From a virus: a stretch of 22,469 nucleotides of DNA. Below the pieces are notes generated by a model. The model searched no databases, was not told where the DNA came from, and saw nothing but the letters and a program-made list of their open reading frames with translations. The translations under genes were made by a program, and so were the position numbers. The first letter of the stretch is position 1. Each line of letters opens with the position of its first letter. Shown here piece by piece: positions 1,341 through 22,469 of this stretch. The stretch is from IMG/VR virus record IMGVR_UViG_3300013094_005466, positions 1 through 22,469 of that record; one strand, given 5' to 3'.

Positions 1341-2876
1341 TTAGTCGGTGTAAAAAGTGCCATTGATGAGAGAACCCCAGAAGGATTGAGACTCGCCATT
1401 GCTGAGGCCGGATAGAGACCGCGTGAAGTAAGTGGTCACATTGCCCGCCGCGCCGGCGGTGCCTGCTGCGCCAGCATCGCCAGTGGAAGAGCCAGTGCCC
1501 GCAGGCCCAGCCGCACCGCCATTGGCAGCAGCGGAGTACATGCCCCCGACGATGCAATTATTGAGGATGACTTGCCCAGCAGTGCCACCGTTGCCGCCGT
1601 TGCCGCCATTAGCGCCAGGGCCGTTATTGTCGATGTAATTGCTACCCTGCCCCCCTTGTCCACCTTGTCCAGCATAGCTGACCGCGTAGCCCCCGAGGAT
1701 GGAGTCATTGACGGTGAGGATGCCAGCCGCGCCGCCGTTGCCGCCATTGCCACCGTGGAAAGGGCTGGTGCCTGCGGTTGTATCGCCCCCATAGCCACCT
1801 GCCCCGCCGTTGCCGGACACGAGAACGATGTCCGAGGCGCAGTTGACCCCTGTGACGGTGATGTTGGGAGCGTCCGAGCCGATGGCTCCATCTCCCGGCG
1901 GGATCTCATTGGAGGGATCGCCATTGGTTCCAGCGGTGCCGTCTGGGGCCACGATGTAAATGCTGCTCACGGACACAGCGTTGCGGCCGTTGCCGTAGAT
2001 GTTGCCGCTCTGGTTGCTGATGTTGCCCACCGCGCTGCGCGTCGCGCCAAGACCCACAAGGAGGATGTCGTCAGTGCCGCCGCTCAGGTCTCCAAAACTG
2101 CCAACCCCGAGGCAAAACACGCGAGCACCGGCGTTGTAGGCGGCTTGGATGGTGACGAAGGGATGGAACGGGTCAGCGACGACCCCTGTGCTGTCATTGC
2201 CCCCGCCCTGAATATACCCCACGGCGGTGCTACCCAGAGGGGCCACATAGCTAGACACCCAGGCAGTCGAGGGGATATATGCTCCGATGGCCAATAGACT
2301 TGGCCCAGGACTGACTGTTGGAGTGCCAGTCAGCGCCGCATTGGCCAGCGGTGCATACGTGCTCGACACCGTCGCAGCCGTGATGGCATCGGTGATGCCG
2401 TAGCTGCTGAGGGTCGTCGGCGTGCTGGTGATCGTGCCCCATGGGACGCTGGTGATGCCATACCCCGAGAGTGTGGTCGGCGTGCTAGTGATCGTTGACC
2501 AGGCCTGGGTTCCAGTGTGGTTCGTGCGTGCCAATGGATTTGTGGAGAGAACTGAGAGCGCCAGCGAGCCATTGGTGATCAGCGGCTGGTAGGTGCTGGC
2601 AGCGGTGGCGGCGGTGATGGAGTCGGTGATGCCATAGCCGCTGAGAGTCGTGGGTGTGCCGGTGATCGAGGACCAGGCGGGCGAGCTGGTCACCGTGACA
2701 GCGCCGAGATTGCCGCTATTGTCCCAGCCCAGGATTTTGCCCGGCGTCTTCGTGATCCAAACCGGTGTGAGCGGGCCGCTGGAAGACTTGACGGGAAGCT
2801 GAACATCGCCCGTGGATTGAGCCAAGGCGAGGCAGGGGGCGAGGACGGCAAAGAGGATGGAAGTCAGGTACTTCAT
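1341..2876 (-). CDS. Fibre/appendage-like protein with signal peptide, TPTTLSGYGIT repeats and Gly-rich region
   Basis: This 511-residue protein probably forms a trimeric or beta-helical fibre. The first 20 residues look like a Sec signal peptide: Lys near the N-terminus, a hydrophobic core, and an A-L-A-Q end at about 17-20. Residues 68-84, 126-142 and 146-162 are three copies of W-x-T/S-I-T-x-TPTTLSxYGIT, a repeat common in phage tail and head fibres. Residues about 220-350 look like a pectate-lyase-type beta helix ('FVTIQAAYNAGARVF'). Residues 354-478 are extremely Gly-rich (GGNGGNGG type). The start ATG overlaps the stop of the upstream gene (ATGA), which supports this start and hence the signal peptide. 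Secretion of a virion fibre is unexpected. An exported surface protein of the lysogen is the alternative. Confidence 0.85.
   Translation of the reverse strand: MKYLTSILFAVLAPCLALAQSTGDVQLPVKSSSGPLTPVWITKTPGKILGWDNSGNLGAVTVTSSPAWSSITGTPTTLSGYGITDSITAATAASTYQPLITNGSLALSVLSTNPLARTNHTGTQAWSTITSTPTTLSGYGITSVPWGTITSTPTTLSSYGITDAITAATVSSTYAPLANAALTGTPTVSPGPSLLAIGAYIPSTAWVSSYVAPLGSTAVGYIQGGGNDSTGVVADPFHPFVTIQAAYNAGARVFCLGVGSFGDLSGGTDDILLVGLGATRSAVGNISNQSGNIYGNGRNAVSVSSIYIVAPDGTAGTNGDPSNEIPPGDGAIGSDAPNITVTGVNCASDIVLVSGNGGAGGYGGDTTAGTSPFHGGNGGNGGAAGILTVNDSILGGYAVSYAGQGGQGGQGSNYIDNNGPGANGGNGGNGGTAGQVILNNCIVGGMYSAAANGGAAGPAGTGSSTGDAGAAGTAGAAGNVTTYFTRSLSGLSNGESQSFWGSLINGTFYTD
1443..1817 (-). repeat. Glycine-rich low-complexity coding region
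   Basis: This segment encodes residues about 354-478 of the fibre-like protein. Gly-Gly-Asn, Gly-Gly-Gln and Ala-Gly triplets alternate with short beta strands such as 'GILTVNDSILGG' and 'GQVILNNCIVGG'. The alternation suggests successive beta-helix rungs joined by Gly-rich loops, a pattern found in PE-PGRS-like and adhesin proteins. Confidence 0.7.
2391..2675 (-). repeat. Three TPTTLSGYGIT fibre repeats
   Basis: Three copies of a 17-residue unit (W-S/G-S/T-I-T-G/S-TPTTLSxYGIT) are encoded at about 2625-2675, 2451-2501 and 2391-2441. The first and third are followed by a related 'D-S/A-ITAAT-x-x-STY-x-PL' unit. DNA identity between copies is clearly lower than amino-acid identity, so the repeats are old and selected at protein level. 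Such repeats are typical of fibre shafts. Confidence 0.75.
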
Positions 2877-3736
2877 GCGAGGAAACGGGGAATGCGACCA
2901 TGGGGCGCGCCATTGAGGGCCACGGTATAAAATTCATCCGCAGCCCCGGTAAGTGTGTAGCCCATCACGCTGCTGCGCGGATCGCCATCGCCGGCGGCAT
3001 CGCGTTGCACGCGGCCATGCAGAGCGCCGTTGAAAGCAATGGCGTAGAAGTCCGCGCCAGAGTCGGCGATCGCGAAATCAGCGGCACTGCCTGCGTTATC
3101 CTCAGTGCCAGGCAAAAAGCGCTGAATTTGGCCATGCGCCGCACCATTCAAGACGATGTCATACGACACATCCTCAGCGGCGGCGATGCGGTAGAAGGTG
3201 CCGAGCACCATGGCGGCAATGCCATTGGGATCGGTGGCAGGGTCGTCGTGGGCAAAGATCAAATCGAAGTTTGCCTTCGCGGTGCGAAAGGCGGCCTGGC
3301 CATCGTAGCGCAGCCATTCCCATCCGCGATACCGGAAGCCTTTGGCGTCGATGTCGGGCGCGACGAGTTTGAGGCCACGCACCTTGCGAATGAGCCAATG
3401 CAGGCGCGTGAAAAAGGCGGGGGTGCCACGGATGGATTCATGCGCCACATTGTGATTGCGCACGGGCTCCATGCCTTTAGGGGCTTGCACGAAGGCGACC
3501 AGGCGGCCTTCGACGAGACCGGTGTCGAGGTCTTCGAGATTATTGTCGCCATCCATGGAGAGGATGACACGCCAGCGCTCGGGGGCTTGCGCCAGCTCCT
3601 GCAGGGCGTCCTCTTCGGCCTCAGCGACCGAGACGAGCCCGCAATTGTCTGCCAACACCAGCGGCGCGAGGGAAGATTCGACGGCGCTGAGGATGGTGGC
3701 AGAGGTCATGAGCAGGATGGCGCAGAGCAGTTTCAT
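2873..3736 (-). CDS. Putative tail-completion protein with signal-like N-terminus and three 39-residue NGAxHGR repeats
   Basis: This 287-residue protein lies directly after gp36 (ATGA overlap), where Mu-like phages carry gp37 or another tail-completion protein. The middle part (about residues 55-165; 'RWRVILSMDGDN', 'VAFVQAPKGM', 'GFRYRGWEWL') resembles the fold pattern of tail-terminator proteins. Residues 192-206, 231-245 and 270-284 are three copies of Y-x-I/V-x-L/F-NGA-x-HG-R/Q-I/V-x-R, exactly 39 residues apart. The first about 18 residues are hydrophobic like a signal peptide. A second Met at residue 10 (MTSATILSAV) would remove most of that; the ATGA overlap favours the first Met. The family assignment is tentative. 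Confidence 0.75.
   Translation of the reverse strand: MKLLCAILLMTSATILSAVESSLAPLVLADNCGLVSVAEAEEDALQELAQAPERWRVILSMDGDNNLEDLDTGLVEGRLVAFVQAPKGMEPVRNHNVAHESIRGTPAFFTRLHWLIRKVRGLKLVAPDIDAKGFRYRGWEWLRYDGQAAFRTAKANFDLIFAHDDPATDPNGIAAMVLGTFYRIAAAEDVSYDIVLNGAAHGQIQRFLPGTEDNAGSAADFAIADSGADFYAIAFNGALHGRVQRDAAGDGDPRSSVMGYTLTGAADEFYTVALNGAPHGRIPRFLA
2885..3163 (-). repeat. Tandem 117-nt coding repeat (39 aa, NGAxHGR)
   Basis: Three copies of a 15-residue motif recur at exact 39-residue (117-nt) steps at the C-terminus of the protein encoded at 2873-3736. The cores are YDIVLNGAAHGQIQR, YAIAFNGALHGRVQR and YTVALNGAPHGRIPR. The exact period suggests a small beta domain duplicated in tandem. Confidence 0.8.
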
Positions 3737-4158
3737 GCGGCGAGCGATTCGGAATAAGCGCGGCTGGGTTCCCCAATGAGTTCACCGGCTGGATTGCCGG
3801 GCTTAATGTTGACGCTGAGAGGGTCGGTGCCGTTGCCGAGTGCGGTCAGGCGGTCGGTAGCGCGCTTGATGCGGGTGGCGAGCAGGCTGTCTTTCTCGAT
3901 GCCGATCTGGCGGCGGATGTAGAGAGCTTCAGCGCAGAGGCAGACACCGATTTCTTGCACCACGGCCGCGAGTGCGAGATCCGTCAAGACCAGTGGCAGC
4001 GCGTAGCGTCCGCCAAGGACGGCATTGATGGCGTTTTCCGCTCCGGCCATCACTTCGGCCAGTGCGCTGGGTTCACCCACTGCCGCGTCGTCAGTGCCAT
4101 CGACAAGCCAGTTGTCGGGCACCAGACCGGTCATGTTTTGGCGGGTAAAGTAAGCCAT
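3733..4158 (-). CDS. Mu gp36-like protein (DUF1320 family)
   Basis: This 141-residue protein starts MAYFTRQNMTGLVPDNWLVD. It has the DUF1320 pattern: an acidic 'AEVMAGAENAINAVLGGRYALPL' helix-turn around residues 38-60, then a helix containing 'LCAEALYIRR'. In Mu-like phages this protein sits between capsid genes and tail genes and is thought to act at the head-tail connection. Here it is also downstream of the capsid block and overlaps the next gene by 4 nt. The leader before the ATG is a pyrimidine tract (CTCTCACTTCCC) without a Shine-Dalgarno sequence. Family assignment is fairly secure; the biochemical role is inferred from the family. Confidence 0.85.
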   Translation of the reverse strand: MAYFTRQNMTGLVPDNWLVDGTDDAAVGEPSALAEVMAGAENAINAVLGGRYALPLVLTDLALAAVVQEIGVCLCAEALYIRRQIGIEKDSLLATRIKRATDRLTALGNGTDPLSVNIKPGNPAGELIGEPSRAYSESLAA

Positions 4159-4180
4159 GGGAAGTGAGAGAAGAGAGGGA

Positions 4181-4222
4181 GAAAAACAGCGCCCCAGGTT
4201 GGGTTATGAGCCGCCTGGGGCG
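4181..4222 (-). terminator. Candidate Rho-independent terminator between capsid and tail blocks
   Basis: Read on the minus strand, a perfect 9-bp GC-rich stem (CGCCCCAGG / CCTGGGGCG) with a 15-nt loop is followed by CTG and five T residues. It lies in the 110-nt gap between the gene ending at 4269 and gp36 starting at 4158, on the correct strand to end or attenuate the capsid transcript. The loop is rather long and the T-tract short, so partial read-through is likely. Confidence 0.55.
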
Positions 4223-4268
4223 TGTTCCTCCGGGCGGAGAGACCCACGATGAGCGGCGTGGGGAGTCG

Positions 4269-4652
4269 TTAAGAAGCGGGGGGCGTCGGGACAGTGAAGG
4301 CCGTGACGAAGGGATCAGCGAGCTTGGTGAACTGCTTGACCAGGTCAGGGGTCAGGCCTTCGTGCTCGGCGGTGACAGCCGCGACGGGATCGGCATCGGT
4401 GAGCTTTTTCAAATCGGCCACCGACTTCTGCGCGGTCATGACGCCACGCACAGCGGCCATCAGAGAATTGCGGGCTTGAGCGGCGGCATTGCGGGCGGCC
4501 TGGGTCGCGGCTGGCGTGTTGTCAAACACGCTCTTCACGGGTTGCGGGCCAGAGGTAACCACGGTGCGCTGCAGTGGCACGCGGGTGCCTGCTGGCGGAG
4601 TCAGCAGCGACGCAGGAACAGCAGGCAGGGCGGCGGGAGATTCGGGAGGCAT
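4269..4652 (-). CDS. Small capsid-region protein, paralogue of the protein at 5219-5512
   Basis: This 127-residue protein has a Pro-rich N-terminal third (MPPESPAALPAVPASLLTPP) and a helical remainder. Its C-terminal half aligns with the protein encoded at 5219-5512. Both share an Ala-rich helix, then 'ADP-x-AA', then a spaced E-GL-QF-LA/AEP-AF pattern (here 'KQFTKLADPFVTAF'; there 'AQFLGLAEPIFNAF'). The two copies lie on either side of the second decoration-like gene, so the pair probably arose by duplication. There is no membrane segment or signal peptide. A head-completion or capsid-accessory role is inferred from position alone. The ATG has a CCCTTTT leader and no Shine-Dalgarno sequence. 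Confidence 0.7.
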   Translation of the reverse strand: MPPESPAALPAVPASLLTPPAGTRVPLQRTVVTSGPQPVKSVFDNTPAATQAARNAAAQARNSLMAAVRGVMTAQKSVADLKKLTDADPVAAVTAEHEGLTPDLVKQFTKLADPFVTAFTVPTPPAS

Positions 4653-4685
4653 AAAAGGGCGCGGTGTGAGGTTCGTGGACTCGGA

Positions 4686-5177
4686 TCAAGGCATCACGGT
4701 CGTGGAGCGCATCGGGTTGACCAGGTCAGCGCGGAACGCGATGGTGGTGGTGGATGTGCCGCATCCAATCACATAGAGATACCAGCCGGTGGTAAGGTCT
4801 GTGAGTGGAGCAACACCGCCGGCAGTGGCGGAGAGGATATAGACGGTGCCATTGGCCACCGTGGCACCGATGACCAGGGCGGGATCTGAGATGACATACT
4901 TGCACGGTGTGCCGACTGAGGCGGAGTTGATGGCGATACCGCACACGGTGCGGACGTTGACACCGGCGTCATTGGCATCGGCAAGCTTGAGCGTGAAGCT
5001 TGCGGAGGGGTCGCGGTAGAGTAGCTTGCCCGCTGTGATGGCCGCACCGGCGATTCCTTCCCGAATGACCGCATTGGCCGATGGGGTGACATTGGCGGCG
5101 GTGATTGAGAGGTCCGTGGCGAAGACGGAAGCCGATAGCAGGCAGAGGGCGAGCAGGGAGCGAAAGAGGAAGTTCAT
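4686..5177 (-). CDS. Capsid decoration/cement-like protein with Sec signal peptide
   Basis: This 163-residue protein has residues 1-20 typical of a Sec signal peptide (MNFLFRSLLALCLLSASVFA, then TDLS). The mature part has the pattern of small phage capsid-cement proteins (DUF2190-like): 'AGKLLYRDPS', 'KLADANDAGVNVRTVCGIAI', 'GATVANGTVYILSA' and 'GWYLYVIGCGTSTTTIAF', all short beta strands with Gly turns. No in-frame ATG, GTG or TTG lies between the start and the mature part, so the signal-like segment must be translated. It lies downstream of the capsid gene and between the two paralogous small genes. The decoration role is by similarity of pattern and by context. A secreted virion decoration protein is unusual. 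Confidence 0.75.
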   Translation of the reverse strand: MNFLFRSLLALCLLSASVFATDLSITAANVTPSANAVIREGIAGAAITAGKLLYRDPSASFTLKLADANDAGVNVRTVCGIAINSASVGTPCKYVISDPALVIGATVANGTVYILSATAGGVAPLTDLTTGWYLYVIGCGTSTTTIAFRADLVNPMRSTTVMP

Positions 5178-5218
5178 GGGCGAGTTTGGGAGTGTGGGAG
5201 CGTTTGAGGTGGGGAAAA

Positions 5219-5512
5219 TCAGGCGATAGGGAAGGCATTAAAGATCGGCTCGGCGAGTCCGAGGAACTGAGCCATGGCGCTTTCGCTGAGTCCGTATTGT
5301 TCGAAGATCGCAGCGGCAGCGGGGTCAGCTTTCGCCGTGCGCTGCATGCTGGCCATGGCATCGGTGGCACGGCGGAGAGCGATGTTGGAACCGTCAATCA
5401 ATTGGCGGCCTTCTTCTGCCTGGCGGCGGGCCGCAGCAGCGGCACGCGCTGTCTGTTGCGAGGCGACGGAGAAGGCGGCGGGCTTGGGTTTTTTGGATGC
5501 TTTTTTGGCCAT
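5219..5512 (-). CDS. Small Lys/Ala-rich capsid-region protein, paralogue of the protein at 4269-4652
   Basis: This 97-residue protein starts MAKKASKKPKPAAFSVASQQ. I chose this ATG over an upstream in-frame one at 5680 because the latter would overlap the major capsid gene by about 100 nt and encode an unrelated, non-conserved leader. The basic N-terminus is followed by a helical Ala/Arg region and the C-terminal motif 'ADPAAAAIFEQYGLSESAMA' plus 'QFLGLAEPIFNAF', shared with the protein at 4269-4652. The leader is CCCTTTCTTCTT with no Shine-Dalgarno sequence. It sits directly behind the major capsid gene. Function is unknown. Confidence 0.75.
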   Translation of the reverse strand: MAKKASKKPKPAAFSVASQQTARAAAAARRQAEEGRQLIDGSNIALRRATDAMASMQRTAKADPAAAAIFEQYGLSESAMAQFLGLAEPIFNAFPIA

Positions 5513-5536
5513 AAGAAGAAAGGGAGTACTGCCAAA

Positions 5537-5558
5537 GGCCGTGCCTTGCAGCACAGCC
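5537..5558 (-). other. Hairpin after the major capsid gene
   Basis: On the minus strand an 8-bp stem (GGCTGTGC / GCACGGCC, one G-U pair) with a 6-nt loop TGCAAG is followed by only three T residues. It lies 25-46 nt after the capsid stop codon. It could stabilise the capsid message 3' end or act as a weak attenuator, setting a high capsid to low accessory expression ratio. Confidence 0.35.
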
Positions 5559-5582
5559 GATGGCGTGATCTGAGAGCGGGGA

Positions 5583-6497
5583 TTACGGAGCGTCGGCACC
5601 GGTGGAACCGACCGCACGGCGGGGCTCGCCTGGCCCGATGGCAAAGCGACTGCGAGCCTTCCATTTGTATTCGTCCTCATTTAGGACGTTGGCATTGGTG
5701 AGGTCCACGGCTGCTGTGAGTTCCAACGGAATGCGAGTTTGATAGACCAGGGGAGTAACGAGGTCAGCGCAATCCCAGAGCATCCAGGCATCACCCAGGC
5801 CAGGGATGACCACGATCTGAGCGGTGTTGTAGTTCGGGTTATCCGCACCACCGGCCAAGCGCTGTACTTGCACGATATTTTGGGCAGTGACTTCCCAGTT
5901 TTCACCGACGATCAAGTAGGACTTGGAGGCGTCCAACAGCGTGAACATCGGCTGGCCGGTAGCTTTCGGCATGGCCTTGAGCATGGCGCGGGCGGTGGCG
6001 TAATTGGCCGCGCTCAGCTTCTGCGTCATGAGGTTGTCGAACGTCGTCACCCCCAGAGGATGGGCGTTGTTGAAGAAGCTCACTCCAGTGTAAGCCTTGA
6101 TGGTTGTAAACAGCAGAGGAAGGATCTTCAGCAGTTCATAATCAGGAGCGGCAGCACCGTTCTGACCCAACTTGGCCGCAACATTGGCGAACATGCCGTA
6201 TTGGTCGTCCTCGATGGCCTTGCGCGGAATGGTGATGCCGACCTTGAACTCGTCATTGACGATGGTCTGACCCAAAAGCTCCACTGGATTCCAGGTGATG
6301 GCCTCAGGGTTCTTTTCCAGTTCAGGCAGGTCTTTCAGCCAGCCATAAAGTTCTTCAGATGTGGAGCTTTGCACAGTCAGCAGTCCAAGCTTCTTAACGA
6401 AGCCAGGGATGACGAGCGTGCCTTTGTTGAAGGAGGTTTGCAGCCCCTGATTGATCATAGTCAACAGGGCATTCGTGACGACATTTTTAGCGGCCAT
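5583..6497 (-). CDS. Major capsid protein, Mu gpT family
   Basis: This 304-residue protein matches the Mu gpT length (about 305). Typical family patterns are present: 'TSEELYGWLKDLPELEKNPE' (Mu-like proteins have a YGWL segment here), 'NDEFKVGITIPRKAIEDDQYG' near residue 80-100, a helical 'AAKLGQNGAA' region and 'FFNNAHPLG' near residue 140-148. The C-terminus carries 'TRIPLELTAAVDLTNANV'. It would form the icosahedral shell (HK97 fold in the family). It lies downstream of the protease/scaffold gene, as in Mu, but with a decoration-like gene between them. It has no signal peptide, unlike its neighbours. The leader is TTTACTTTT before the ATG. Confidence 0.92.
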   Translation of the reverse strand: MAAKNVVTNALLTMINQGLQTSFNKGTLVIPGFVKKLGLLTVQSSTSEELYGWLKDLPELEKNPEAITWNPVELLGQTIVNDEFKVGITIPRKAIEDDQYGMFANVAAKLGQNGAAAPDYELLKILPLLFTTIKAYTGVSFFNNAHPLGVTTFDNLMTQKLSAANYATARAMLKAMPKATGQPMFTLLDASKSYLIVGENWEVTAQNIVQVQRLAGGADNPNYNTAQIVVIPGLGDAWMLWDCADLVTPLVYQTRIPLELTAAVDLTNANVLNEDEYKWKARSRFAIGPGEPRRAVGSTGADAP

Positions 6498-6543
6498 AAA
6501 AGTAAAGCGTGAGGTGTGGGAGCGGGGTTAGAGAGAGAGGCGG

Positions 6544-7209
6544 TTATTTGAGCAGGCCATGGAGCACTAGGGCGGCCTTGATGGCGGCGACATCGACTTG
6601 GAGCGCGTTGCCTTGCGTCTTGAGTGCATTGGCCAGGGCTTCGGACGTGGTCAGGTCCGTCGCGGCTGCGGTGGAGTTCTGGGCGCTGGTGATGGAGACT
6701 GAAACTGGGGCGACACCTTTGCTATACGGTAGCCCCACCCAGACCCAAACACCGTCGCTGGTCACTTCCTCCACGATTCCTGCGACGACACCGTAGGTGT
6801 TGCTGGAGCTGGAGACCGTGTTGTTGTCTTCGATGAAGCAGACGCGGCCGATGTAGGCATTAGTTAGAGCGTTGGTTGCGGAGTTCTTCACCAAGAACAG
6901 GCCTTTGCGCACGCGACTGGACTGATCGCCCGCGCTGCCGCTGCTATTGTCGGTTTCCTGCGCATGCAGACCCACCACGCGGAGACCGGTGGCGTCGGTG
7001 GCTTCAAGCAGGTAGCCGCTGCTGTTGATCGCCGCGAAGGTGCCGATCAGTGTCTTGGTGCTGGCAGCGACGGGGAAGACGCTCTTGTTATCTTGGCGTT
7101 CAGGCACCGTGATGCTAACTGCCGTGGTGGCAAAGGACTCGTAAGACACACCGACTGCCAGAGCAGTCAGGACGAAGAGGGGGAGGATGGATTTACGGAG
7201 GGTATTCAT
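6544..7209 (-). CDS. Capsid decoration-like protein with N-terminal signal-like segment
   Basis: This 221-residue protein lies between protease/scaffold and major capsid genes, the usual place of a Mu-like head decoration protein. Residues 1-27 are a basic-hydrophobic signal-like sequence (core 'ILPLFVLTALAVG', possible cut after 'ESFA'). The body (residues 28-170) has short beta segments: 'VFPVAASTKTLIGTFAAINS', 'GYLLEATDATGLRVVGLHA', 'AYIGRVCFIEDN' and 'SDGVWVWVGLPYSKGV'. The last 50 residues form a helix reminiscent of a trimeric stalk. A GTG inside the hydrophobic stretch would be the only nearby alternative start and would remove most of the signal. The role is inferred from context and pattern. 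Confidence 0.75.
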   Translation of the reverse strand: MNTLRKSILPLFVLTALAVGVSYESFATTAVSITVPERQDNKSVFPVAASTKTLIGTFAAINSSGYLLEATDATGLRVVGLHAQETDNSSGSAGDQSSRVRKGLFLVKNSATNALTNAYIGRVCFIEDNNTVSSSSNTYGVVAGIVEEVTSDGVWVWVGLPYSKGVAPVSVSITSAQNSTAAATDLTTSEALANALKTQGNALQVDVAAIKAALVLHGLLK

Positions 7210-7326: not shown

Positions 7327-8385
7327 TTATTTGGCGGCCTCGGTTTTGGCGTTGGGGCCATGCTTGGCGTAGTCCTCTTTGGAGATGCCCATCTTTTCGA
7401 GCACGGCTTCGTCTTCAGCGCTCAGCGCGTCGGGCTTGGCATTGGGGTCGATGGTCGTCTCCACGGTCTTGTGCCCAAAGGGCACGACACCGGGCTTCAG
7501 GCCTGCCACCAGCTTTTCACAGGTGCTCAACGCGGTCACATTCCAGTCTTCATCAGACAGAGGGATTACTTTACCGGCATGGATGGCCTGTTCCTTGAGG
7601 CGGTCGCGTTTGATGGTGTCGCGTTCCTTCTCCACGGCTTCGAGGCGGACTTCGAGGGCAGAGAGGCCTTCGGCACCGGCCTTTTTATCGGCTTCGGCAT
7701 CCTTGGCGATTTTGGCCGTCAAGTCTTTAAGGGTGGAGGCAACCGTTGCTTCGTCAGCATCCGGGTTGAGGGTCATGCCGAGAGCGGCAAGCAGTGCGAT
7801 GAGTTCAGGGGTGGGCTTCATAGGAGAGGTCAGGGGGGAGTCAGAGGCAGAAAGAGCGGCGATGTCAGCGGAGAGCGCGGCCTGCACGGCGTCAGGGATG
7901 GTCAGGCCGTCAATCTCGCCATGCTGGCAGAGTGCGGCGCTGTGGATGGCGAGGACGTTGCCCGCTTTGTCGCGGTAAACCGTGGGGCTGATGTCCTGGA
8001 AGTGACCGCCGAGGAAGGACTCTTTGCCTTCAGGAGTCCAAGACAGGCCGGTGAGGAAGATGCCTTTGCCTGGGACTATCTCAGGCTTGCCGGTGGCAGC
8101 GATCTTACGCGGTTCCTTCTCTGCTAGGTAGCTCGGATGCCCCTTCAGAGAGTTGTGATTGAAATCGAGGCAGACGTGATCCGCCTTTTTTAAGCGAGAC
8201 ATGTTGCCGGCAAACACGCGGGCCGTGCCCTCGTTGACGATGGCCTTGCCCCGCGCTCCGATCTCATGCGTGCCCCACGGGGCCACAAGCAACCGTGTCG
8301 GCAGCGCATCGCCCTCGCGCTCCACGGTCTCAGCGCGGAGAGCACAGAGGGTGATGGGTGAAGCAGTGGCAGCGGTCTTGGACAT
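7327..8385 (-). CDS. Mu gpI-like prohead protease with C-terminal scaffold
   Basis: This 352-residue protein starts MSKTAATASPITLCALRAET. The protease part (about residues 10-185) has the Mu-I pattern: 'DFNHNSLKGHPSYLAEKEPR' (family DxxH region, D74/H77), 'GIFLTGLSWTPEG', 'DISPTVYRDKAGNVLAIHSA' and S149 in 'HSAALC'. The C-terminal part is helical and charged ('ALEVRLEAVEKERDTIKRDR'), then 'GKVIPLSDEDW', as in scaffold domains of this family. In Mu, scaffold Z is made from an internal start of gene I; here Met189 (ATG at 7819-7821, MKPTPELIALLAALGM) is at the right place. An upstream ATG at 8406 is possible but adds only seven residues. It heads the leftward structural operon. Confidence 0.9.
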   Translation of the reverse strand: MSKTAATASPITLCALRAETVEREGDALPTRLLVAPWGTHEIGARGKAIVNEGTARVFAGNMSRLKKADHVCLDFNHNSLKGHPSYLAEKEPRKIAATGKPEIVPGKGIFLTGLSWTPEGKESFLGGHFQDISPTVYRDKAGNVLAIHSAALCQHGEIDGLTIPDAVQAALSADIAALSASDSPLTSPMKPTPELIALLAALGMTLNPDADEATVASTLKDLTAKIAKDAEADKKAGAEGLSALEVRLEAVEKERDTIKRDRLKEQAIHAGKVIPLSDEDWNVTALSTCEKLVAGLKPGVVPFGHKTVETTIDPNAKPDALSAEDEAVLEKMGISKEDYAKHGPNAKTEAAK

Positions 8386-8458
8386 GCGGCAAGACTGCCA
8401 CCCCATTCACCCCCTGCATTCCTCTGTAGCCTCTATGGAACTAGCGCTGCCGAGTGAA

Positions 8459-8866
8459 TCAATACCCCAGTTTTCCATACTGAACTTTAGCCCGCGCTAA
8501 GCGAACATTCCCAACCCACGACTCGACACAAACATAGTCCCAGCCGCTGCGATGAGCCCATAAATTAGCTATGCCTTCGCAGACTCGTTGGGGATCGGTC
8601 CCATTGGGCACAGTAACCCACAAAATGTCTGGCTCAATAAAGCGCGAACTCTCCACGTGGTAGCTGTCTGCGATGATGGACTGTAGTTCAGCCGGACTTA
8701 TTTTGGAGGGTGTATTGCTCGCCAAGGCTGTGTGAGTCGCATTGGGGTTGTGCGATGCCATCCAAGCAATCAAGCAGAAGAAGCCAACCACTGCGAGAAG
8801 TCCTAGAAGTAGAACACCCAGGCCCTTCATCGTACCTCGCAGACAAGCTTTAAAGAAGGGATTCAT
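8459..8866 (-). CDS. Small membrane-anchored protein downstream of the repressor
   Basis: This 135-residue protein has a basic N-terminus, one clear transmembrane helix at about residues 14-36 ('GLGVLLLGLLAVVGFFCLIA') and a soluble domain of about 95 residues containing two cysteines ('QRVCEGIANLW', 'WDYVCVESW'). Lys/Arg before the helix suggests N-in topology with the domain in the periplasm. It follows the repressor by 22 nt on the same strand, so it should be expressed in the lysogen. Genes in this place often change the lysogen surface or block superinfection, but no family is recognised. Its last codons overlap the TTGATTCA motif discussed at 8451-8463. Confidence 0.75.
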   Translation of the reverse strand: MNPFFKACLRGTMKGLGVLLLGLLAVVGFFCLIAWMASHNPNATHTALASNTPSKISPAELQSIIADSYHVESSRFIEPDILWVTVPNGTDPQRVCEGIANLWAHRSGWDYVCVESWVGNVRLARAKVQYGKLGY

Positions 8867-10299: not shown

Positions 10300-10472
10300 C
10301 CCCACGCCGCCCCAATTTTACCTGCCGTCTGCGCGCCGATCTGGCACGCACCGCCGCCCTTGTGCCTGCGCTGCGCCGTCCGGCGGATGTGCTGATCCTG
10401 CCCTCTGCGCTGAGTCACCTGCAGAGCTTCGTCAACAAGGTCCACACCAAGGCAGGCCCACGCCGCCGCTGA
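10296..10472 (+). CDS. Short basic early protein (58 aa)
   Basis: The ATG overlaps the stop of the preceding gene (ATGA), and the reading frame is open for 58 codons, ending in PRRR and a TGA. The protein is basic (MTPRRPNFTCRLRADLARTA) with many Arg residues at both ends, which would suit nucleic-acid contact, but no family is recognised. The coupled start and the immediate spacing to the next gene (7 nt) are the main support for a real gene. Confidence 0.6.
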   Translation: MTPRRPNFTCRLRADLARTAALVPALRRPADVLILPSALSHLQSFVNKVHTKAGPRRR

Positions 10473-12377: not shown

Positions 12378-14300
12378 ATGCAAGGCTCTCCCACATCGCT
12401 CGCTGATCGCGCCTTGGCCGTGGCCATGGTGGATAGCTATGTGACGGCGAAGATGCCGGTGCGGCGGGCGTGCATTGAAGCGGGAGTGAAGTTTGTGTCT
12501 TACTACCGCTGGAAGGTGGAGATCGAGAACGCACAGCGGGGCGGATTGACGGCACCGGTCGAATTGAAGAAGCGCGGTAGGCCGGAACTCTTCACGCTGA
12601 CGGATGGCGAGACGCGCAGGCTGCGCTTCTGGCGCTTGGTCAAAGGTTCCATCCCGCTGGCTGTCGAGGCGGCGATCGCTGAGAGCACGACACAGGATGA
12701 CCTGCCGTATTTTGCTGCACTGCGCGCCATGCAAGCCGGTGGTGACGTTGTCAACGAAGCACACCGCAAGACACGCCAGAGCATCGAAGGTGCGACGAAG
12801 TTTGATGAGGCCAAAGCCATCGCTCTACGCGCCTACTGGCAGCGGTTTGTGGAAGCGCGCAAGGTGGTGACTTGGCCGATGTCCATCCAACGTGCGTGCC
12901 GCGTGTCTGAAGATGAAGAGGCCGCATTCCGAGGCCGCAAGGCGCTGGACAATCGCGCCGGACATGAGCGACGGGGCGCATTCATCATCGACGAAGAAGG
13001 CAAGCGCCTGCCATGGTTTGCGGGGGCGATTTGGTGCTCGGATGACATGAGCGTGAATGATCCCTTCAAGTTCTTCGATGCCGCTGAACAGCGCGAACTC
13101 ACGGGACGCCAGACACTCTGGACCACGGATGCCTTTTCCCTCAATTTTCTAGGCTGTCACCACATTGGCCGGGATCGCGATAGCTACCGCGCTGAGGACA
13201 TCGCCGACCATTTCGCGGCCCTAGTTGATGAGCATGGCCTGCCGATGATCTGGCGCGTGGAGCGTGGGCGCTGGGACAACAATTTTATCAACGGCTGTCC
13301 CATCCCTGGGGAGTTTGAAGAAGACGGAACCGCGAAGCGCTGGGGCGGGCTGGATGCCATCATTCGCATGGCCGTGAAGTTCAATTCTCGCGGCAAGGAA
13401 ATCGAAGGCTGCTTCAATTTGCTGCAAAGCATGATGGACCATGGCGGCAATGGCCAGGCACTGAGCATTGGCCGCAAGCGCGGCGAGTTCGAGCAGGCCA
13501 CGAAGCTCATGCTGCGGACGGATCGCGATGCCGCCGCGCTGGAGAAGTTCTGGAGCATCGAAGCCAGCGCGGATCATGCGCAGCGCGTGATGCAGGCCTG
13601 GCAGCAGCGGCCCAAACTGCGCGAGTCATTTGGCAACAAATCATTCACGCCGGCGGAACTGTGGGCCAGCCATGTGAAGCGCCCCTGCCCACAGAATGAG
13701 CGCTGGCGTTTTCTGCCCATCAAGATGGCGGCGCGGGTTTGGAAAGGTGTCATTGAAGTGAAGGTGCCACACTACCCGGTGAGCTTCCGCTTCCGTCTGC
13801 ATGGCGCTAGCCGCATCGCTGGGGCGCAGTTTGTGGATGGGCATGAAGTCATGATTGCCTTTCACCCTGGCAATGCCTGGGAAGGATGCCACGTTTTCAA
13901 CCGCGACCGCAGCGCCCGCAACCGCGACAAATGGAGCTGGCTGCAACGCATCGGCGTGGCTGACCACATGGCGGAAGTGCCCCAAGAGGATCTGCGTAGC
14001 GAAGGCTACAGCACCGGCCAAAGCCGCGCCCATGCGCAGGTGCGCAGTGAATACCGGGGCATGATCGCCGGGACCGCGCTGGACGGACGCCGCCGTAGTC
14101 ACGCACAGGACAGCCTGGGCAACGCGCTGAGTGTCCGCCGGGGTGTGGAGCTTAGCGGGGATGATGCACCACGCCAAACGCAGCCAGAACGCGTACGCGG
14201 TGGCCTCAGTGAAGGACGCCTGACCCCACGCCGCACCGTCTCCATCGGCGCGGAAGATTTCGACGAAGCCGAAGAACTCCACGCCCTGACCACCCGCTGA
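12378..14300 (+). CDS. Mu A-like DDE transposase
   Basis: This 640-residue protein is close to MuA in length (663). Residues 20-48 carry an HTH-like segment ('KMPVRRACIEAGVKFVSYYR'), a helical DNA-binding part continues to about 205, and the RNase H-like catalytic core starts near 217. The first acid is D222 or D223 ('IWCSDDMSV'). The expected second Asp position reads 'MIWRVERGRWDNN', so it is E295 or D300. The third acid is likely E343 ('RGKEIEGCFNLLQ'). A beta-barrel-like region follows ('VWKGVIEVKVPHYPVSFRFR'), and the tail from about 520 is charged. It would catalyse integration and replicative transposition with the downstream ATPase. The A-B gene order matches Mu. Confidence 0.88.
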   Translation: MQGSPTSLADRALAVAMVDSYVTAKMPVRRACIEAGVKFVSYYRWKVEIENAQRGGLTAPVELKKRGRPELFTLTDGETRRLRFWRLVKGSIPLAVEAAIAESTTQDDLPYFAALRAMQAGGDVVNEAHRKTRQSIEGATKFDEAKAIALRAYWQRFVEARKVVTWPMSIQRACRVSEDEEAAFRGRKALDNRAGHERRGAFIIDEEGKRLPWFAGAIWCSDDMSVNDPFKFFDAAEQRELTGRQTLWTTDAFSLNFLGCHHIGRDRDSYRAEDIADHFAALVDEHGLPMIWRVERGRWDNNFINGCPIPGEFEEDGTAKRWGGLDAIIRMAVKFNSRGKEIEGCFNLLQSMMDHGGNGQALSIGRKRGEFEQATKLMLRTDRDAAALEKFWSIEASADHAQRVMQAWQQRPKLRESFGNKSFTPAELWASHVKRPCPQNERWRFLPIKMAARVWKGVIEVKVPHYPVSFRFRLHGASRIAGAQFVDGHEVMIAFHPGNAWEGCHVFNRDRSARNRDKWSWLQRIGVADHMAEVPQEDLRSEGYSTGQSRAHAQVRSEYRGMIAGTALDGRRRSHAQDSLGNALSVRRGVELSGDDAPRQTQPERVRGGLSEGRLTPRRTVSIGAEDFDEAEELHALTTR

Positions 14301-14305
14301 ATTTT

Positions 14306-14503
14306 ATGCAACTCCTCGCAACTTTCGATCTGGATGACGACAACCGCCTGTTCGCCACGCTGAGCAATGTGGAGACCAACAGCCCCGTCGCTGTGGTCAC
14401 AGAAGACCTCAAAGATGGCCGCACCTTTCAAGACCAGGTCAAGGCCTTCGCCGCCAATCTCGGACACGAGATCGCCGAATGGGACCGCTCACGCGTCCCC
14501 TGA
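14306..14503 (+). CDS. Small hypothetical protein between transposase and ATPase
   Basis: This 65-residue acidic protein starts MQLLATFDLDDDNRLFATLS. Short beta segments ('LLATFDLDDD', 'SPVAVVTEDL') are followed by a helix ('FQDQVKAFAANLGHEIAEWD'). The start codon is 5 nt after the transposase stop with a TGAATTTTATG junction, a coupling pattern that recurs in this operon. No family is recognised. A 68-nt gap follows before the ATPase gene. Confidence 0.65.
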   Translation: MQLLATFDLDDDNRLFATLSNVETNSPVAVVTEDLKDGRTFQDQVKAFAANLGHEIAEWDRSRVP

Positions 14504-14571
14504 ATTTTCGCCCCAACCTCTGCCGGGCGGCGGAGCGGGGCGCGATAACGACAACGAACCAACACAACACT

Positions 14572-15591
14572 ATGAGCACCGATACCATCACCAACACCGA
14601 AGCCTCGCAACAGGAGCTGCGGGAGATCGCGCTGACGATCAAAGAGCACACTGAGGCGGAAGAAATCAGCATTAAGGAACTGATCCGCGTCTATCCGAAT
14701 CTAGGCAGTGATAAGACCTTTGGTCTGTGCTGCAAAGGGGACTTCACCGAACTCAAAGCAGACAACTGGTTGGAGGCTTATCGCGGGGTCTTGGACGCCA
14801 TGAGCGACAGCGGCGAGAGCGATCCGCTCTACGAAGACCTCACGACCACGCAGGAAGTGCGGAAACAAATCACGCGCCTCAAACTCAGCCGAACCAACGC
14901 CAAGTTGGTGATCATTGAAGGCTTCACCGGCAGCGGCAAGACCAGTGCGGCACGCATCATCGCCACCAAATACAACGGCATGGCCGCGACGCGCCAGGTC
15001 TTCACAATTGAAGCGAGCGCAGGCTGGGGAGACCGCCCCAACGCAATGCTGACCGCGATGCTCAAAGCACTGGGTCGTGGCGATGGTGGACGCTCCCAGG
15101 CGGCGCGTCTCGATAAGCTGTGTGAAGTATTAGCCGAGCGCCCAGTGATGTTCGTGATTGATGAGGTCCACGACTTCGGCGTGCGCTGTCTGCGCGTGGT
15201 GAAGACGATCCTCAGCACCACACCGACGAAGATCATTCTGCTGGCTCATCCGCGCCTCTTTAAAAACTTGGAGCGCGAAAACTGGGACGACCTCAGCCAG
15301 CTCACCGGCAATCGCCTGCTGGCGCGCATTCACCTTGGCACCCTGACCGTTGAAGACACTGAAGCACTGCTGCAACGCCGCCTTCCTGCTCCGGGCCTGA
15401 ATGGTGAACTCAAAGAAGCCGCCGAGATCGTGGCCCATGCCGCGCTAAACAACGGCAACCTGGCCTTCGTGCGTGAGGTCGTGGTGCGTCTGAGCAAGGC
15501 CGCGAAGAAAAACCCGCTCAACCTCGCCGCCGTGAAAACAGCGGTGCGCAAAGAACTCTCCGACCGCAACAGCGAAGCCAAAGCCGCCTGA
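14572..15591 (+). CDS. MuB-like AAA+ ATPase (transposition target-selection protein)
   Basis: This 339-residue protein is read from the ATG at 14572. The frame is open further upstream but starts there would overlap the preceding gene. Walker A is at 117-125 (GFTGSGKTS) and Walker B at 192-198 ('VMFVIDE', then VHD). Sensor-like segments follow ('STTPTKIILLAHPRL'). The N-terminal about 70 residues contain a helix-turn-helix-like domain ('ISIKELIRVYPNLGSDKTFG'), as in MuB, which has an N-terminal DNA-binding domain before its ATPase. It lies two genes after the transposase, as B follows A in Mu. It would bind target DNA, stimulate the transposase and confer target immunity. Confidence 0.87.
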   Translation: MSTDTITNTEASQQELREIALTIKEHTEAEEISIKELIRVYPNLGSDKTFGLCCKGDFTELKADNWLEAYRGVLDAMSDSGESDPLYEDLTTTQEVRKQITRLKLSRTNAKLVIIEGFTGSGKTSAARIIATKYNGMAATRQVFTIEASAGWGDRPNAMLTAMLKALGRGDGGRSQAARLDKLCEVLAERPVMFVIDEVHDFGVRCLRVVKTILSTTPTKIILLAHPRLFKNLERENWDDLSQLTGNRLLARIHLGTLTVEDTEALLQRRLPAPGLNGELKEAAEIVAHAALNNGNLAFVREVVVRLSKAAKKNPLNLAAVKTAVRKELSDRNSEAKAA

Positions 15592-19274: not shown

Positions 19275-19845
19275 AATCCGCGCTGATGTGGAGGCTTACG
19301 GATGGAAGCACATTGCTTACCATCCGGGCCTGCGTGGGGTTTTGCCGGCGGTGAAGATGTTTTGCAGCGCGGTGCTGGATAACACGACGCCGAGGCGGTG
19401 GCTGTCGCTGCTGGGGCCGTCTGGGGTGGGCAAGACGCACCTGCTGAAGCAGGCGGTGCGGCTGCTGGAAACGAAGTGGCGGATCAAGACAAAGACGGGG
19501 TTTCGTGGGCCGAATGTGGCGCATCTGATCCCAGCGGCGGATTTGACGGATTGGAAGGCAGCCCAGGTGTACGCGGCCTATGATTTGATCTACATTGAGG
19601 ACATCGGGGCGGGGCAGTCGATGGACGGCGGATCGGGCAAAGTGACGGCGTCGCGCATCCGTGAACTGTTGCAACTGCGGAGCAACAAATGGACGCTGCT
19701 GGATGCGAATCTTTACCGGGCTGACATCGCGGCGGCATTGGACGGGCGCATTGCGAGCCGACTGAAGAGGGACGGCTCCTGGATGATCGAGATCCCTGAT
19801 GAGGTGCCTGATTTCTGGGATGTCTCCGAAACTAAACAGCCATGA
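19210..19845 (+). CDS. DnaC/IstB-like AAA+ ATPase
   Basis: This 211-residue protein is read from the ATG at 19210. A TTG at 19177 is in frame but less likely. Walker A is at 69-76 (GPSGVGKT), Walker B at 125-132 (DLIYIEDI), with a Ser/Thr sensor region ('ASRIRELLQLRSNKWTLLDA') and an Arg finger-like segment ('GRIASRLKRD', 179-188). The size and motif spacing suit DnaC-type helicase loaders and IstB transposition helpers. The family hydrolyses ATP to load a DnaB-type helicase or to remodel a transposase complex. The prophage already has a MuB-like ATPase, so helicase loading is my preferred role. The next gene starts by ATGA overlap. Confidence 0.82.
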   Translation: MQNEPQPLAAVIQQIQRAATVEIRADVEAYGWKHIAYHPGLRGVLPAVKMFCSAVLDNTTPRRWLSLLGPSGVGKTHLLKQAVRLLETKWRIKTKTGFRGPNVAHLIPAADLTDWKAAQVYAAYDLIYIEDIGAGQSMDGGSGKVTASRIRELLQLRSNKWTLLDANLYRADIAAALDGRIASRLKRDGSWMIEIPDEVPDFWDVSETKQP

Positions 19846-20306
19846 CTTCGACCCTTTCCAAGAAACTGAATGGAACGCCAACGCCTGCGAAGGTGCGGGT
19901 GGAGTTCATGCCGGGGCGGGTGATGGAGGTGGTGCCGTTTGAGTCGGCGTCGGTGCCGAAGTTTGTGGTGTGCCGGTTGGTGAAGCAGGCGAATGGGATG
20001 TTTGCGCTGATCCCACAGCAGTGGAGCCAGCAGGTGAGGCTGACCCACCAACTGTGCCGCGACATGGGGATCCAGTGTGACCGGAAGATTGTGTACAATC
20101 TGATCCGGGCGGGGTTTGTGAAGGGGACGATGATTTCTGCACGCAACACGATGGTGGATGTGCTGAGTCTGGTGGAGCACCTGCAGCGGTGCCAGATTGG
20201 CAGCGGGAAGCCGGTGTACTGGACGAAGGCGCGGATCGAGAAGTATCGCTTTGCTTCCATAGGGGCGGTAGAGGAATGCGAGGATGATGATGCGGACGAA
20301 GATTGA
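19842..20306 (+). CDS. Hypothetical protein, possible DNA-binding
   Basis: This 154-residue protein starts MTSTLSKKLNGTPTPAKVRV. The N-terminal half has beta-type segments ('VRVEFMPGRVMEVVPFES', 'KFVVCRLVKQANGMFALIPQ'). The middle part is helical with 'LTHQLCRDMGIQCDRKIVYN' and 'LIRAGFVKGTMISARNTMVD', which reads like an excisionase-type HTH. The C-terminus is acidic (EECEDDDADED). It starts by ATGA overlap with the ATPase gene and ends just before gpF. In Mu, terminase and portal would be in this place; it resembles neither. Confidence 0.65.
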   Translation: MTSTLSKKLNGTPTPAKVRVEFMPGRVMEVVPFESASVPKFVVCRLVKQANGMFALIPQQWSQQVRLTHQLCRDMGIQCDRKIVYNLIRAGFVKGTMISARNTMVDVLSLVEHLQRCQIGSGKPVYWTKARIEKYRFASIGAVEECEDDDADED

Positions 20307-20311
20307 CGGTC

Positions 20312-21844
20312 ATGGCTTCTCCGTTTCTCTCTGAACCGACCCCTCACACGGAGGCGTCTGCGTGGCTGCGCGGCAAGCCGGTGGTGAGTAAGGAGATCTT
20401 TGACAATCTGCTGCCTGAACTGCGAGCACGGGCGTTTTTGGTGCAAGGGGTTGAGGACGCGAATGTGGTGGCTGAGGTGCGTGAGATCGTGGCGAAACTG
20501 CCGGAAGGTATGCCGTGGGAGGAAGCGAAAAAGGAGATCGCGAAGAAGCTGGGGCCGTGGCTGAGCACGGATGATGAGGCGATGATGGCGGCACGGGCGC
20601 GGGCGGAGCTGATCCTGCGGACGCATGGATTTCAGGCCTACCAGGTGACAGCCCATAAGATCATGCGGGCGCAAGAGGACGTGTTTCCATTTTGGGAGTA
20701 CCTGAGCCTGGGGGACGGGAAGGTGCGGCCTGCCCACGCAGCGCTGAATCATAAGGTGTGCCCGGCGGATTCACCCTTTTGGCATGACCATTCGCCGCCA
20801 TGGCAGTGGGGGTGCCGTTGCCGTAAAGTGGCGCTGCTGCCGCATGAGGTGGCGGAGATGGAGGCAGAGGACAAGGGACTGCCACCGGAGCGCCAGCGGG
20901 TGATGCAAGGCCCGGCACTGAAGCTGGCTGAGCAGGGACGGATTTACAATGCGGCGGGTCAGCAACTGGACATCAAGAGTGACCGCCAGAAGGGAAAGCC
21001 GGGGGGCTTTGTGTTTGACCCGGATGCTTTGACGGTGCCGCTGTCTGAACTGAAGGCGCGATATGACCCTATTACGTGGGCTGAATTTGAACAGAACTCG
21101 AAGGCGACGAAGTTGGATGATGGTCGCTCGGTCTGGAGCTGGCTGAACGGGGCCAAGGCTCCGAAGGTGAAGCCGGGGAAGGTCGCGCCGGCGGTGGTGG
21201 CTGCGGTGAAGCCTGGCGCTGCCGTGGCTGCAGCTACGACTCAGGACGGGGCGCTGGTGTCTGAGGCGCTGGACCTGGCGAAGACGGGGGTGCATGAAGC
21301 GGCGGCGAAGACGGCGCTGGATGCGATCGACAAGGTGCATTCGGACGGGGCGCTGCCGATGGCGGATGTGATCGCCGACACGGTGACGAAGATGGATGCG
21401 CTGGGGTCGTATGACCCGAGGACGAACGCGATTGAATTTGCCCATGATGGTACCTGGCCTGAGCTGACGGTGGTGCATGAGGTGGGTCATTTCCTGGACC
21501 GTCGTGCTTTGGGCAGCGGGGTGGGCTACGCCACGCACAGCCTGGACACTCCTGAGCTGCGAGACTGGTGGACTGCGATTGTGGGCTCGCCGACTTTCCA
21601 GAGCATCACACCGCGCAAGACTCGCGATCTGGATGCCTGGGCCTACTTCACGAGTCCGCATGAGGCCTGGGCGCGGAGCTACTCGCAGTTTATCGCGATG
21701 GAGAGTGCCGACCCTATTTTGAAGGCGTGCGTGGACCGCGTGCTGAAGTGTCCGCAGCCCTGGCGACAGTGGCAGGAGGCTGAATTTAAACCCATCGCGG
21801 ATGCGATCCGGGCCGTACTGCAATCGAAGGGATGGATGCCATGA
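20312..21844 (+). CDS. Mu gpF-like minor head protein fused to a zincin-like metallopeptidase domain
   Basis: This 510-residue protein is read from ATG 20312; a TTG three codons upstream is in frame. Residues about 90-180 form the MuF/SPP1 gp7 domain, with 'LGDGKVRPAHAALNHKVC', 'DSPFWHDHSPPWQWGCRCRK' and the conserved Cys residues. An Ala/Pro/Lys linker spans 281-315. The C-terminal part has H389-E390-x-x-H393 ('LTVVHEVGHFLDRR') and E451 in 'SPHEAWARSYSQFIAMES', the HExxH plus Glu pattern of zinc metallopeptidases. MuF proteins often carry C-terminal enzyme or toxin domains delivered with the virion. The gpF domain is secure; metallopeptidase activity is inferred from the motif. Confidence 0.88.
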   Translation: MASPFLSEPTPHTEASAWLRGKPVVSKEIFDNLLPELRARAFLVQGVEDANVVAEVREIVAKLPEGMPWEEAKKEIAKKLGPWLSTDDEAMMAARARAELILRTHGFQAYQVTAHKIMRAQEDVFPFWEYLSLGDGKVRPAHAALNHKVCPADSPFWHDHSPPWQWGCRCRKVALLPHEVAEMEAEDKGLPPERQRVMQGPALKLAEQGRIYNAAGQQLDIKSDRQKGKPGGFVFDPDALTVPLSELKARYDPITWAEFEQNSKATKLDDGRSVWSWLNGAKAPKVKPGKVAPAVVAAVKPGAAVAAATTQDGALVSEALDLAKTGVHEAAAKTALDAIDKVHSDGALPMADVIADTVTKMDALGSYDPRTNAIEFAHDGTWPELTVVHEVGHFLDRRALGSGVGYATHSLDTPELRDWWTAIVGSPTFQSITPRKTRDLDAWAYFTSPHEAWARSYSQFIAMESADPILKACVDRVLKCPQPWRQWQEAEFKPIADAIRAVLQSKGWMP

Positions 21845-22002
21845 GCGAGACGACTGAAGAACTCGAAGACCGTGTGATTGCCGCCCTGGGCGCTGGCACG
21901 ATGGACCGCAAACAGGCGGTGGCTGAATTTACTCGGGCTGGCTGGCCCCAGGCGCTCGCACTGGATTTTGTGAGCGTGATCGTCGATGGTAAGGGCGAAT
22001 GA
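21841..22002 (+). CDS. Short acidic hypothetical protein (53 aa)
   Basis: The frame starts by ATGA overlap with the gpF-like gene and its own TGA overlaps the next ATG, so it is translationally coupled on both sides. It is a 53-residue acidic, helical protein, MSETTEELEDRVIAALGAGT, then 'MDRKQAVAEFTRAGWPQALA'. No family is recognised. It could regulate or protect the gpF-like protein (an immunity-type partner for the fused enzyme domain is one possibility), but it could equally be a head accessory protein. Confidence 0.65.
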   Translation: MSETTEELEDRVIAALGAGTMDRKQAVAEFTRAGWPQALALDFVSVIVDGKGE

Positions 22003-22469
22003 AACTGCGAATCAAAGCGACCCGCAACGTTGTGACGCCTGACCTGGCTGCCAAGATGCGCAAGGCCAGGAACCCACGCAAGGCGCTGGAGGCCATCGGT
22101 TTGACGGTGGTGAGCATGCAGCAGCGGGCGTTTACGACCCCGGCGCTGCGACCCACGGCCTGGGCTCCGCTGAAACCGGCTACGATCAAGGCCAAGATCG
22201 CCAAGGGCTACGGCACGCAGCCGCTGATCTCATCCGGGGCGCTGGCGCATGCGGGGCGGATCGTGAAGACCACGAGCACGGCGGTTACGGTGGGTAGCGA
22301 TCGCCGCGTCAATGGTCACAGCCTGGCAGCGATCCACCAGCTCGGCACCCAGGATGGGAAAATCCCGGCGCGTCCGACGTGGCCATTCAACCGCGATGGC
22401 AAGCCGACTGCCAAGGCGGATGCCAACATCAAGGCCGCTGCCAGGGCTGCTCTCGATCTGGAGCGATGA
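21999..22469 (+). CDS. Mu gpG-like virion morphogenesis protein
   Basis: This 156-residue protein starts MKLRIKATRNVVTPDLAAKM. The pattern matches the phage virion morphogenesis (gpG / tail-completion, Phage_tail_S) family: 'GLTVVSMQQRAFTTPALRPT', 'WAPLKPATIKAKIAKGYGTQ', 'PLISSGALAHAGRIVKTTST', 'VTVGSDRRVNGHSLAAIHQL' and 'IPARPTWPFNRDG'. In Mu, gpG follows gpF and takes part in head/tail morphogenesis, so the F-small gene-G order fits. It starts by ATGA overlap and its stop codon is the last codon of the window, so the gene is complete. Confidence 0.87.
   Translation: MKLRIKATRNVVTPDLAAKMRKARNPRKALEAIGLTVVSMQQRAFTTPALRPTAWAPLKPATIKAKIAKGYGTQPLISSGALAHAGRIVKTTSTAVTVGSDRRVNGHSLAAIHQLGTQDGKIPARPTWPFNRDGKPTAKADANIKAAARAALDLER

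Follow-up and report, generated by a model that had tools for sequence, protein, structure and literature searches.

Tailed-phage virions are taught as wholly cytoplasmic products. Can this hold for a phage in which proteins expected on the outside of the particle begin with export signals? The question is raised by a 22,469-base stretch of viral DNA (IMG/VR record IMGVR_UViG_3300013094_005466; hereafter the window), a fragment of a Mu-like phage genome in which an earlier note had pointed to Sec-like N-termini on two to four virion proteins. Three of these, a capsid decoration protein (6544-7209), a cement protein (4686-5177) and a fibre protein (1341-2876), start with what are, on sequence criteria, textbook Sec/signal-peptidase-I leaders scoring among known exported E. 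coli proteins, whereas the signal of the fourth (2873-3736) is doubtful. The predicted leaders are thus found on parts expected on the virion outside, and the core proteins are leaderless. We consider the chances evenly balanced that these surface add-ons, the two cement/decoration proteins and the fibre, are Sec pre-proteins that would be exported and assembled at lysis. If so, the cytoplasm may not be where a tailed phage completes its outer coat.

Leaders were scored with a home-made, rule-based measure (basic n-region, hydrophobic core, -3/-1 rule), with gene starts taken from open frames. Calibration used 105 proteins encoded in three regions of E. coli K-12, of which 26 were labelled as exported from annotation and knowledge of E. 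coli; at the threshold of ≥ 5 the score accepted 25 of these 26 and also 4 of the other 79, each of the four being known or annotated as an inner-membrane protein. Among 31 plausible window genes, only the four proteins of the earlier note (1341-2876, 6.69; 6544-7209, 6.40; 4686-5177, 6.05; 2873-3736, 5.30) and a transmembrane protein (8459-8866) reached the threshold. The decoration, cement and fibre leaders (6.05-6.69) all have the features of signal peptidase I substrates, i.e. a basic n-region, an uncharged hydrophobic core and small residues at -3 and -1. Because only 24 of 1393 distinct open reading frames of other phage head loci passed without a further transmembrane segment, three leader proteins among the 11 late genes of the window are unlikely to be a chance result (P ~8e-4).

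The decoration gene sits between the protease and major capsid protein genes, in the same order as in JBD25, RC1 and vB_ThpS-P1, and its product matches phrog_1731 (JBD25 gp37 or 'capsid stabilizing protein' type; PHROG E=1e-28). Its 27-residue leader (7129-7209, minus strand) reads MNTLRKSILPLFVLTALAVGVSYESFA/TT, the slash marking the predicted cleavage site here and below; this site is our choice, the best parse of the score lying 9 residues earlier. The mature protein (6544-7128, minus strand, including the stop codon) has an extra C-terminal helix. Leaderless homologues begin MAALTAGRLTP where the leader ends, as compared with SFA/TTAVSITVP in the window. An AF2 model of the mature part (pLDDT 84) gave phage capsid decoration proteins as best Foldseek matches; by sequence family and predicted fold, 6544-7209 is a capsid decoration (cement) protein. 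JBD30 gp39 was discarded as a model for it: in JBD30 the capsid gene directly follows the protease gene, and the minor capsid gene comes after that.

The cement protein carries a 20-residue leader, MNFLFRSLLALCLLSASVFA/TDLS (5118-5177, minus strand), and Rhizobium phage 16-3 p009-type homologues begin exactly at the start of its mature part (4686-5117, minus strand, including the stop codon). Likewise, the leaderless homologue of phage RHph_Y3_1 starts M-ADIVITPANV, compared with SVFA/TDLSITAANV in the window. Pfam Phage_cement_2 is matched by 23 of 40 members of the cement family, the window sequence alone not passing. The AF2 model of the mature protein (pLDDT 95) had capsid decoration proteins as top Foldseek matches, with Adjutor (8saj, E=1e-3) at rank 1, then YSD1, Sf11, Pam3, TW1, SHP and lambda D. 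Over both decoration models, the structural matches (Adjutor, YSD1, Sf11, Pam3, the TW1 capsid-stabilizing protein, the phi29 head-fibre base, SHP and lambda D) were modest (best E ~1e-3, TM-scores mostly 0.3-0.6) but consistently of one kind; PDB sequence searches with the two proteins singly returned no matches. By family and predicted fold, then, 4686-5177 is a phage cement/decoration protein. Both mature proteins resemble in fold and family lambda gpD, phage 21 SHP, the TW1 capsid-stabilizing protein, the decoration proteins of Pam3, XM1 and YSD1, and Phage_cement_2; the surveyed homologues of that class, in contrast, start leaderless at the mature N-terminus, except in the window and the two phages introduced below as L007 and G154.

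The fibre protein starts with a 19-residue leader, MKYLTSILFAVLAPCLALA/QSTG (2820-2876, minus strand), at the ATGA overlap that the earlier note had taken, correctly, to fix its start. Its mature part (1341-2819, minus strand) contains repeated W-x-x-I-T-G-T-P-like motifs and has weak PHROG matches to fibre-like and decoration families. The earlier identification of leader-bearing decoration and fibre proteins thus stands for three proteins, fold and family having been tested for the two decoration proteins, and is doubtful for the fourth.

For this fourth protein, a tail/neck protein (2873-3736, minus strand) with a possible leader MKLLCAILLMTSATILSA, a signal is not established because the ATG at 3709 (codon 10), the likelier start, opens the part conserved with the syntenic relative of the window, IMGVR_UViG_3300042691_036497 (loci L002, L007 and L042, hereafter L007; capsid protein identity 66%). 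In L007, too, the conserved domain opens with an ATG at exactly this place, at 10353 (window, MTSATILSAVES; L007, MDSATILQAVED), and the possible leader lies outside it and is not tied to a sole start; the protein was therefore not counted as a fourth signal protein. Upstream of the conserved ATG, L007 has a low-complexity repeat; slight doubt on this rejection remains, as the corresponding ATGA overlap of L007 carries a signal-peptide-like stretch. A relation of 2873-3736 to Mu-like tail terminators was also considered and dropped, profile comparison giving no relation.

All three leaders recur in L007, with divergence. The L007 decoration orthologue starts MKHPLSKLLAVATLVFGLTALLHVVSTPSQA/AT and is 37% identical to the window protein in the leader vs 67% in the mature part; the cement protein starts MKHLFRLLALAAIAVLAASHVRA/ADLS (score 7.27; mature part 52% identical), and the fibre starts MRSLLLTLALCPALLA/QSAG (mature parts 35% identical). 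For all three proteins leader identity is only 37-47%, with Ala at -1 and Ser, Val, Ala or Leu at -3. By eye, the C-terminal end of the L007 fibre counterpart resembles an SGNH/GDSL hydrolase domain.

Could translation instead begin within or after these segments, leaving leaders that are untranslated and open by chance? Shine-Dalgarno sequences are scarce (1/11 starts in the window, 0/9 in L007 and 3/18 in G154, the regions upstream being pyrimidine-rich, 62-70%) and so mostly give no confirmation of starts, and codon 21 of 6544-7209 is a GTG; the aligned position in L007, however, holds no start codon. Yet from codon 1 to the mature part of 4686-5177 there is no ATG, GTG or TTG, just as the earlier note had observed (the start-like codons listed are CTG 8, CTG 13 and ATT 38), and the L007 cement gene likewise offers no usable start codon where the mature part begins. 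The leaders have a third-position G+C of 82%, vs 68% just upstream, as expected for translated leader sequence, and the leaders are conserved in three phages. Misjudged starts are therefore very improbable.

To follow the leaders through relatives, we fetched best-scoring loci (not a random sample) and built trees in quick FastTree runs. Leaders were found on 2/114 decoration homologues and 2/83 cement homologues, always those of the window and L007. A third case came to light when the N-terminus of the fibre was used as query: the 34.7-kb integrase phage IMGVR_UViG_3300032296_003686 (G154), whose capsid protein differs from that of the window and is leaderless. Its cement homologue starts MKKLLALVSLAALVMPLTAPA/ADVTVTAANV (score 7.59), which brings the cement count to 3/84, and its fibre homologue starts MKRLALTLFVVHALACLSTA/QVAEN (6.56); leader-cement and leader-fibre hence co-occur in two unrelated phage backbones. 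Since the G154 cement protein groups with leaderless relatives in the cement tree, the trait needs at least two changes. Several other homologues that we checked have in-frame stop codons just upstream of the start. Among the candidates set aside were tblastn matches that extend into the first residues (1-11) of the cement query (L131, L139, L144 and others), which proved leaderless, most with in-frame stops upstream, and the L073 decoration homologue, whose upstream hydrophobic stretch (4.88) was not counted as it likely starts at an internal ATG. Nearly all homologues thus start after the hydrophobic segment, the very pattern that the earlier note had named as speaking against it; taken literally this is what was found, but its observation stands, the leaders being kept in the window, L007 and G154. 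Because the window and L007 cement genes have no usable start at the mature position, both phages keep their leaders and G154 has them too, a leader was most likely added in the window/L007 and G154 lineages.

Once cleaved, the fibre proteins of the window, L007 and G154 would all begin with glutamine. This resembles the 'Q rule' for signal peptidase I substrates of Bacteroidetes (PMC10367356) and is a possible clue to the host.

The core of the particle presents the opposite picture. With the same score, leaders were absent from the capsid protein, protease, adaptor and remaining tail genes of the window and L042, a probable false positive on the L007 protease aside. Three Mu-like family models of Pfam identify these core proteins in the window, all on the minus strand: a Mu I-type prohead protease/scaffold (7327-8406; PF10123, E=5e-21; leader score 2.91), the major capsid protein of Mu gpT type (5583-6497; PF10124, E=9e-42; leader score 0.41), which begins MAAKNVV, and a Mu gp36-type head-tail adaptor (3733-4158; PF07030, E=2e-6). 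The earlier statement that capsid protein and protease lack such a segment is borne out by these scores.

How might a phage use such proteins? We picture the host Sec machinery exporting the decoration, cement and fibre pre-proteins, and signal peptidase I removing their leaders; cleavage would leave roughly the N-terminus with which leaderless relatives are made from the outset. The surface proteins would collect in the periplasm while the cytoplasm is the site of DNA packaging and of the assembly of major capsid protein, portal, scaffold-protease and tail tube; rupture of the inner membrane at lysis would then let the surface proteins attach to completed heads and tails. Two observations make it plausible that decoration is late or optional. 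Decoration proteins such as lambda gpD and T4 Soc are able to attach to ready-made capsids in vitro. Further, about half of JBD30 particles are not decorated with their minor capsid protein, a different protein that is likely dispensable (PMC11445458). That virion assembly is split in this way, with a cytoplasmic core to which Sec-exported cement and fibre are joined at lysis, from the periplasm or from outside, and that this arose more than once, perhaps in one host group, has in our estimate a slightly less than even chance. Of the possibilities raised by the earlier note, assembly at or outside the membrane is the best remaining candidate. A domesticated particle is unlikely, the transposase-like, protease, capsid and connector genes being intact and syntenic in two diverged phages.

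Several points weigh against export and late assembly. The leader trait is carried by only three genomes. The L007 fibre scores 4.84, just below threshold, and the L007 protease 5.37, a probable false positive. A host search in genome contigs gave distant Armatimonadota matches only. Moreover, signal-peptide-like leaders occur on 15/107 Mu-like major capsid proteins of other loci (L053:4413-5459, L103:4440-5492, L072:3291-4334, L087:4064-5095, L078:4411-5472, L085:4427-5491, L088:4406-5422, L095:4493-5509, L062:3154-4155, L100:4496-5533, L055:4412-5446, L112:4422-5459, L077:4397-5449, L123:4391-5437 and L118:3096-4112). As leader-bearing capsid proteins must assemble where the DNA is, a leader alone is no proof of export.

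These capsid protein leaders (L053, L072, L087, L103, L123 and others) resemble those of the window in lying upstream of a canonical head-protein start. They differ in that the leader, of ~25 residues and followed by a ~20-residue linker, is on the major capsid protein, has a Shine-Dalgarno sequence at its start (15/15) and goes with leaderless decoration proteins. The proteins bearing them are spread across the capsid tree, which forces at least six changes; cultured phages (LPB1/JBD30/ZX4290/Mushu-type records) and the faecal contig MT835710 showed no capsid-protein leader. In an alignment of L123-type and L095-type capsid proteins (A11), a segment with GAARTAM, DDGRPLGI and LLVVPP is internal in one and C-terminal in the other, i.e. 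the segment order is permuted. A capsid protein of another type (L137:7891-8985) has a possible leader (MIKRTIHLITLLVMMVIGTGLVSTAAVMA), and the cement homologue of that phage is leaderless.

Membrane-tethered assembly, in which leaders hold head and surface proteins at the inner membrane until signal peptidase or a phage protease cuts them, with no periplasmic release, would account for leaders on capsid proteins. Sec insertion, however, puts the passenger outside the inner membrane, and a phage protease acts inside the prohead; in the window clade, furthermore, the capsid protein is leaderless and only surface add-ons have leaders. We therefore regard tethering as unlikely, even though prohead proteases have been suggested to cut such capsid-protein leaders (PMC10367356). 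In that study, of P. gingivalis phages, signal peptides were noted on the capsid proteins and prohead-protease cleavage was assumed; the Sec-like leader on a tailed-phage head protein is shared with the window, where, in contrast, leaders are borne by the surface add-ons and not by the capsid protein.

The repeated gain and loss of similar leaders on capsid proteins elsewhere would also suit leaders that are not export signals at all, either because the proteins fold fast in the cytoplasm or because the leader is an assembly propeptide. This we hold to be rather improbable, as signal-peptide features and the -3/-1 residues are kept despite sequence divergence and, in two phage lineages, the leader is attached at the ancestral N-terminus. 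Alternatively, decoration and fibre proteins might be exported to the surface of the infected or lysogenic cell, e.g. to block adsorption of rivals: they carry export signals, and export is known for one class of phage proteins, the exclusion lipoproteins (mentioned in PMC4936722). The decoration and fibre genes, however, lie inside the late head operon beside the capsid gene and show no sign of being expressed separately, and neither a lipobox nor a surface-anchor domain was found in the leader-bearing proteins, which makes a cell-surface role improbable.

Virion proteins with Sec signal peptides are also familiar from the coats of filamentous phages, viruses of an unrelated type whose entire particle takes shape in the membrane. 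For tailed phages, the earlier note had called exported surface proteins a new arrangement. Signal peptides on major capsid proteins had been mentioned before (PMC10367356), but for cement proteins and fibre we found no earlier report in the literature searched, most subscription journals lying outside it. Should export of the window proteins hold, decoration would be a separate step after lysis, the phage would have a means to keep surface proteins away from assembling heads and would depend on host Sec and signal peptidase, and there would be a possible reason for dispensable decoration proteins. Leaders have been gained repeatedly, on cement and fibre proteins in these phages and on capsid proteins in others, which makes the question directly testable through virion N-termini.

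Further observations concern the surroundings of these genes. The window head genes run leftward from 8406. The gene at 12378-14300, 70% identical in L007, was read as MuA-like transposase from the letters alone. At the right end (19842-22469), rightward Mu F-like and virion-morphogenesis-like genes place the head genes in two divergent blocks flanking the early region. Repeats in L007 and G154 are reminiscent of Verrucomicrobiota. Just downstream of the G154 fibre (L233, ~14360-14830), a possibly lysis-related frame has a signal-type start from an internal ATG (MKTFLIFFALLAWLTSFASA/QTLV, 7.35), and a 202-aa phage-contig protein (L145:663-1271) combines a strong signal-type N-terminus (MKKFATFLCSLALLLSGLVSPAFA) with a virion-protein-like body. 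On either side of the cement gene, the small Ala-rich proteins 5219-5680 and 4269-4652 look like paralogues by eye, the former probably starting at an internal ATG (MAKKASKK).

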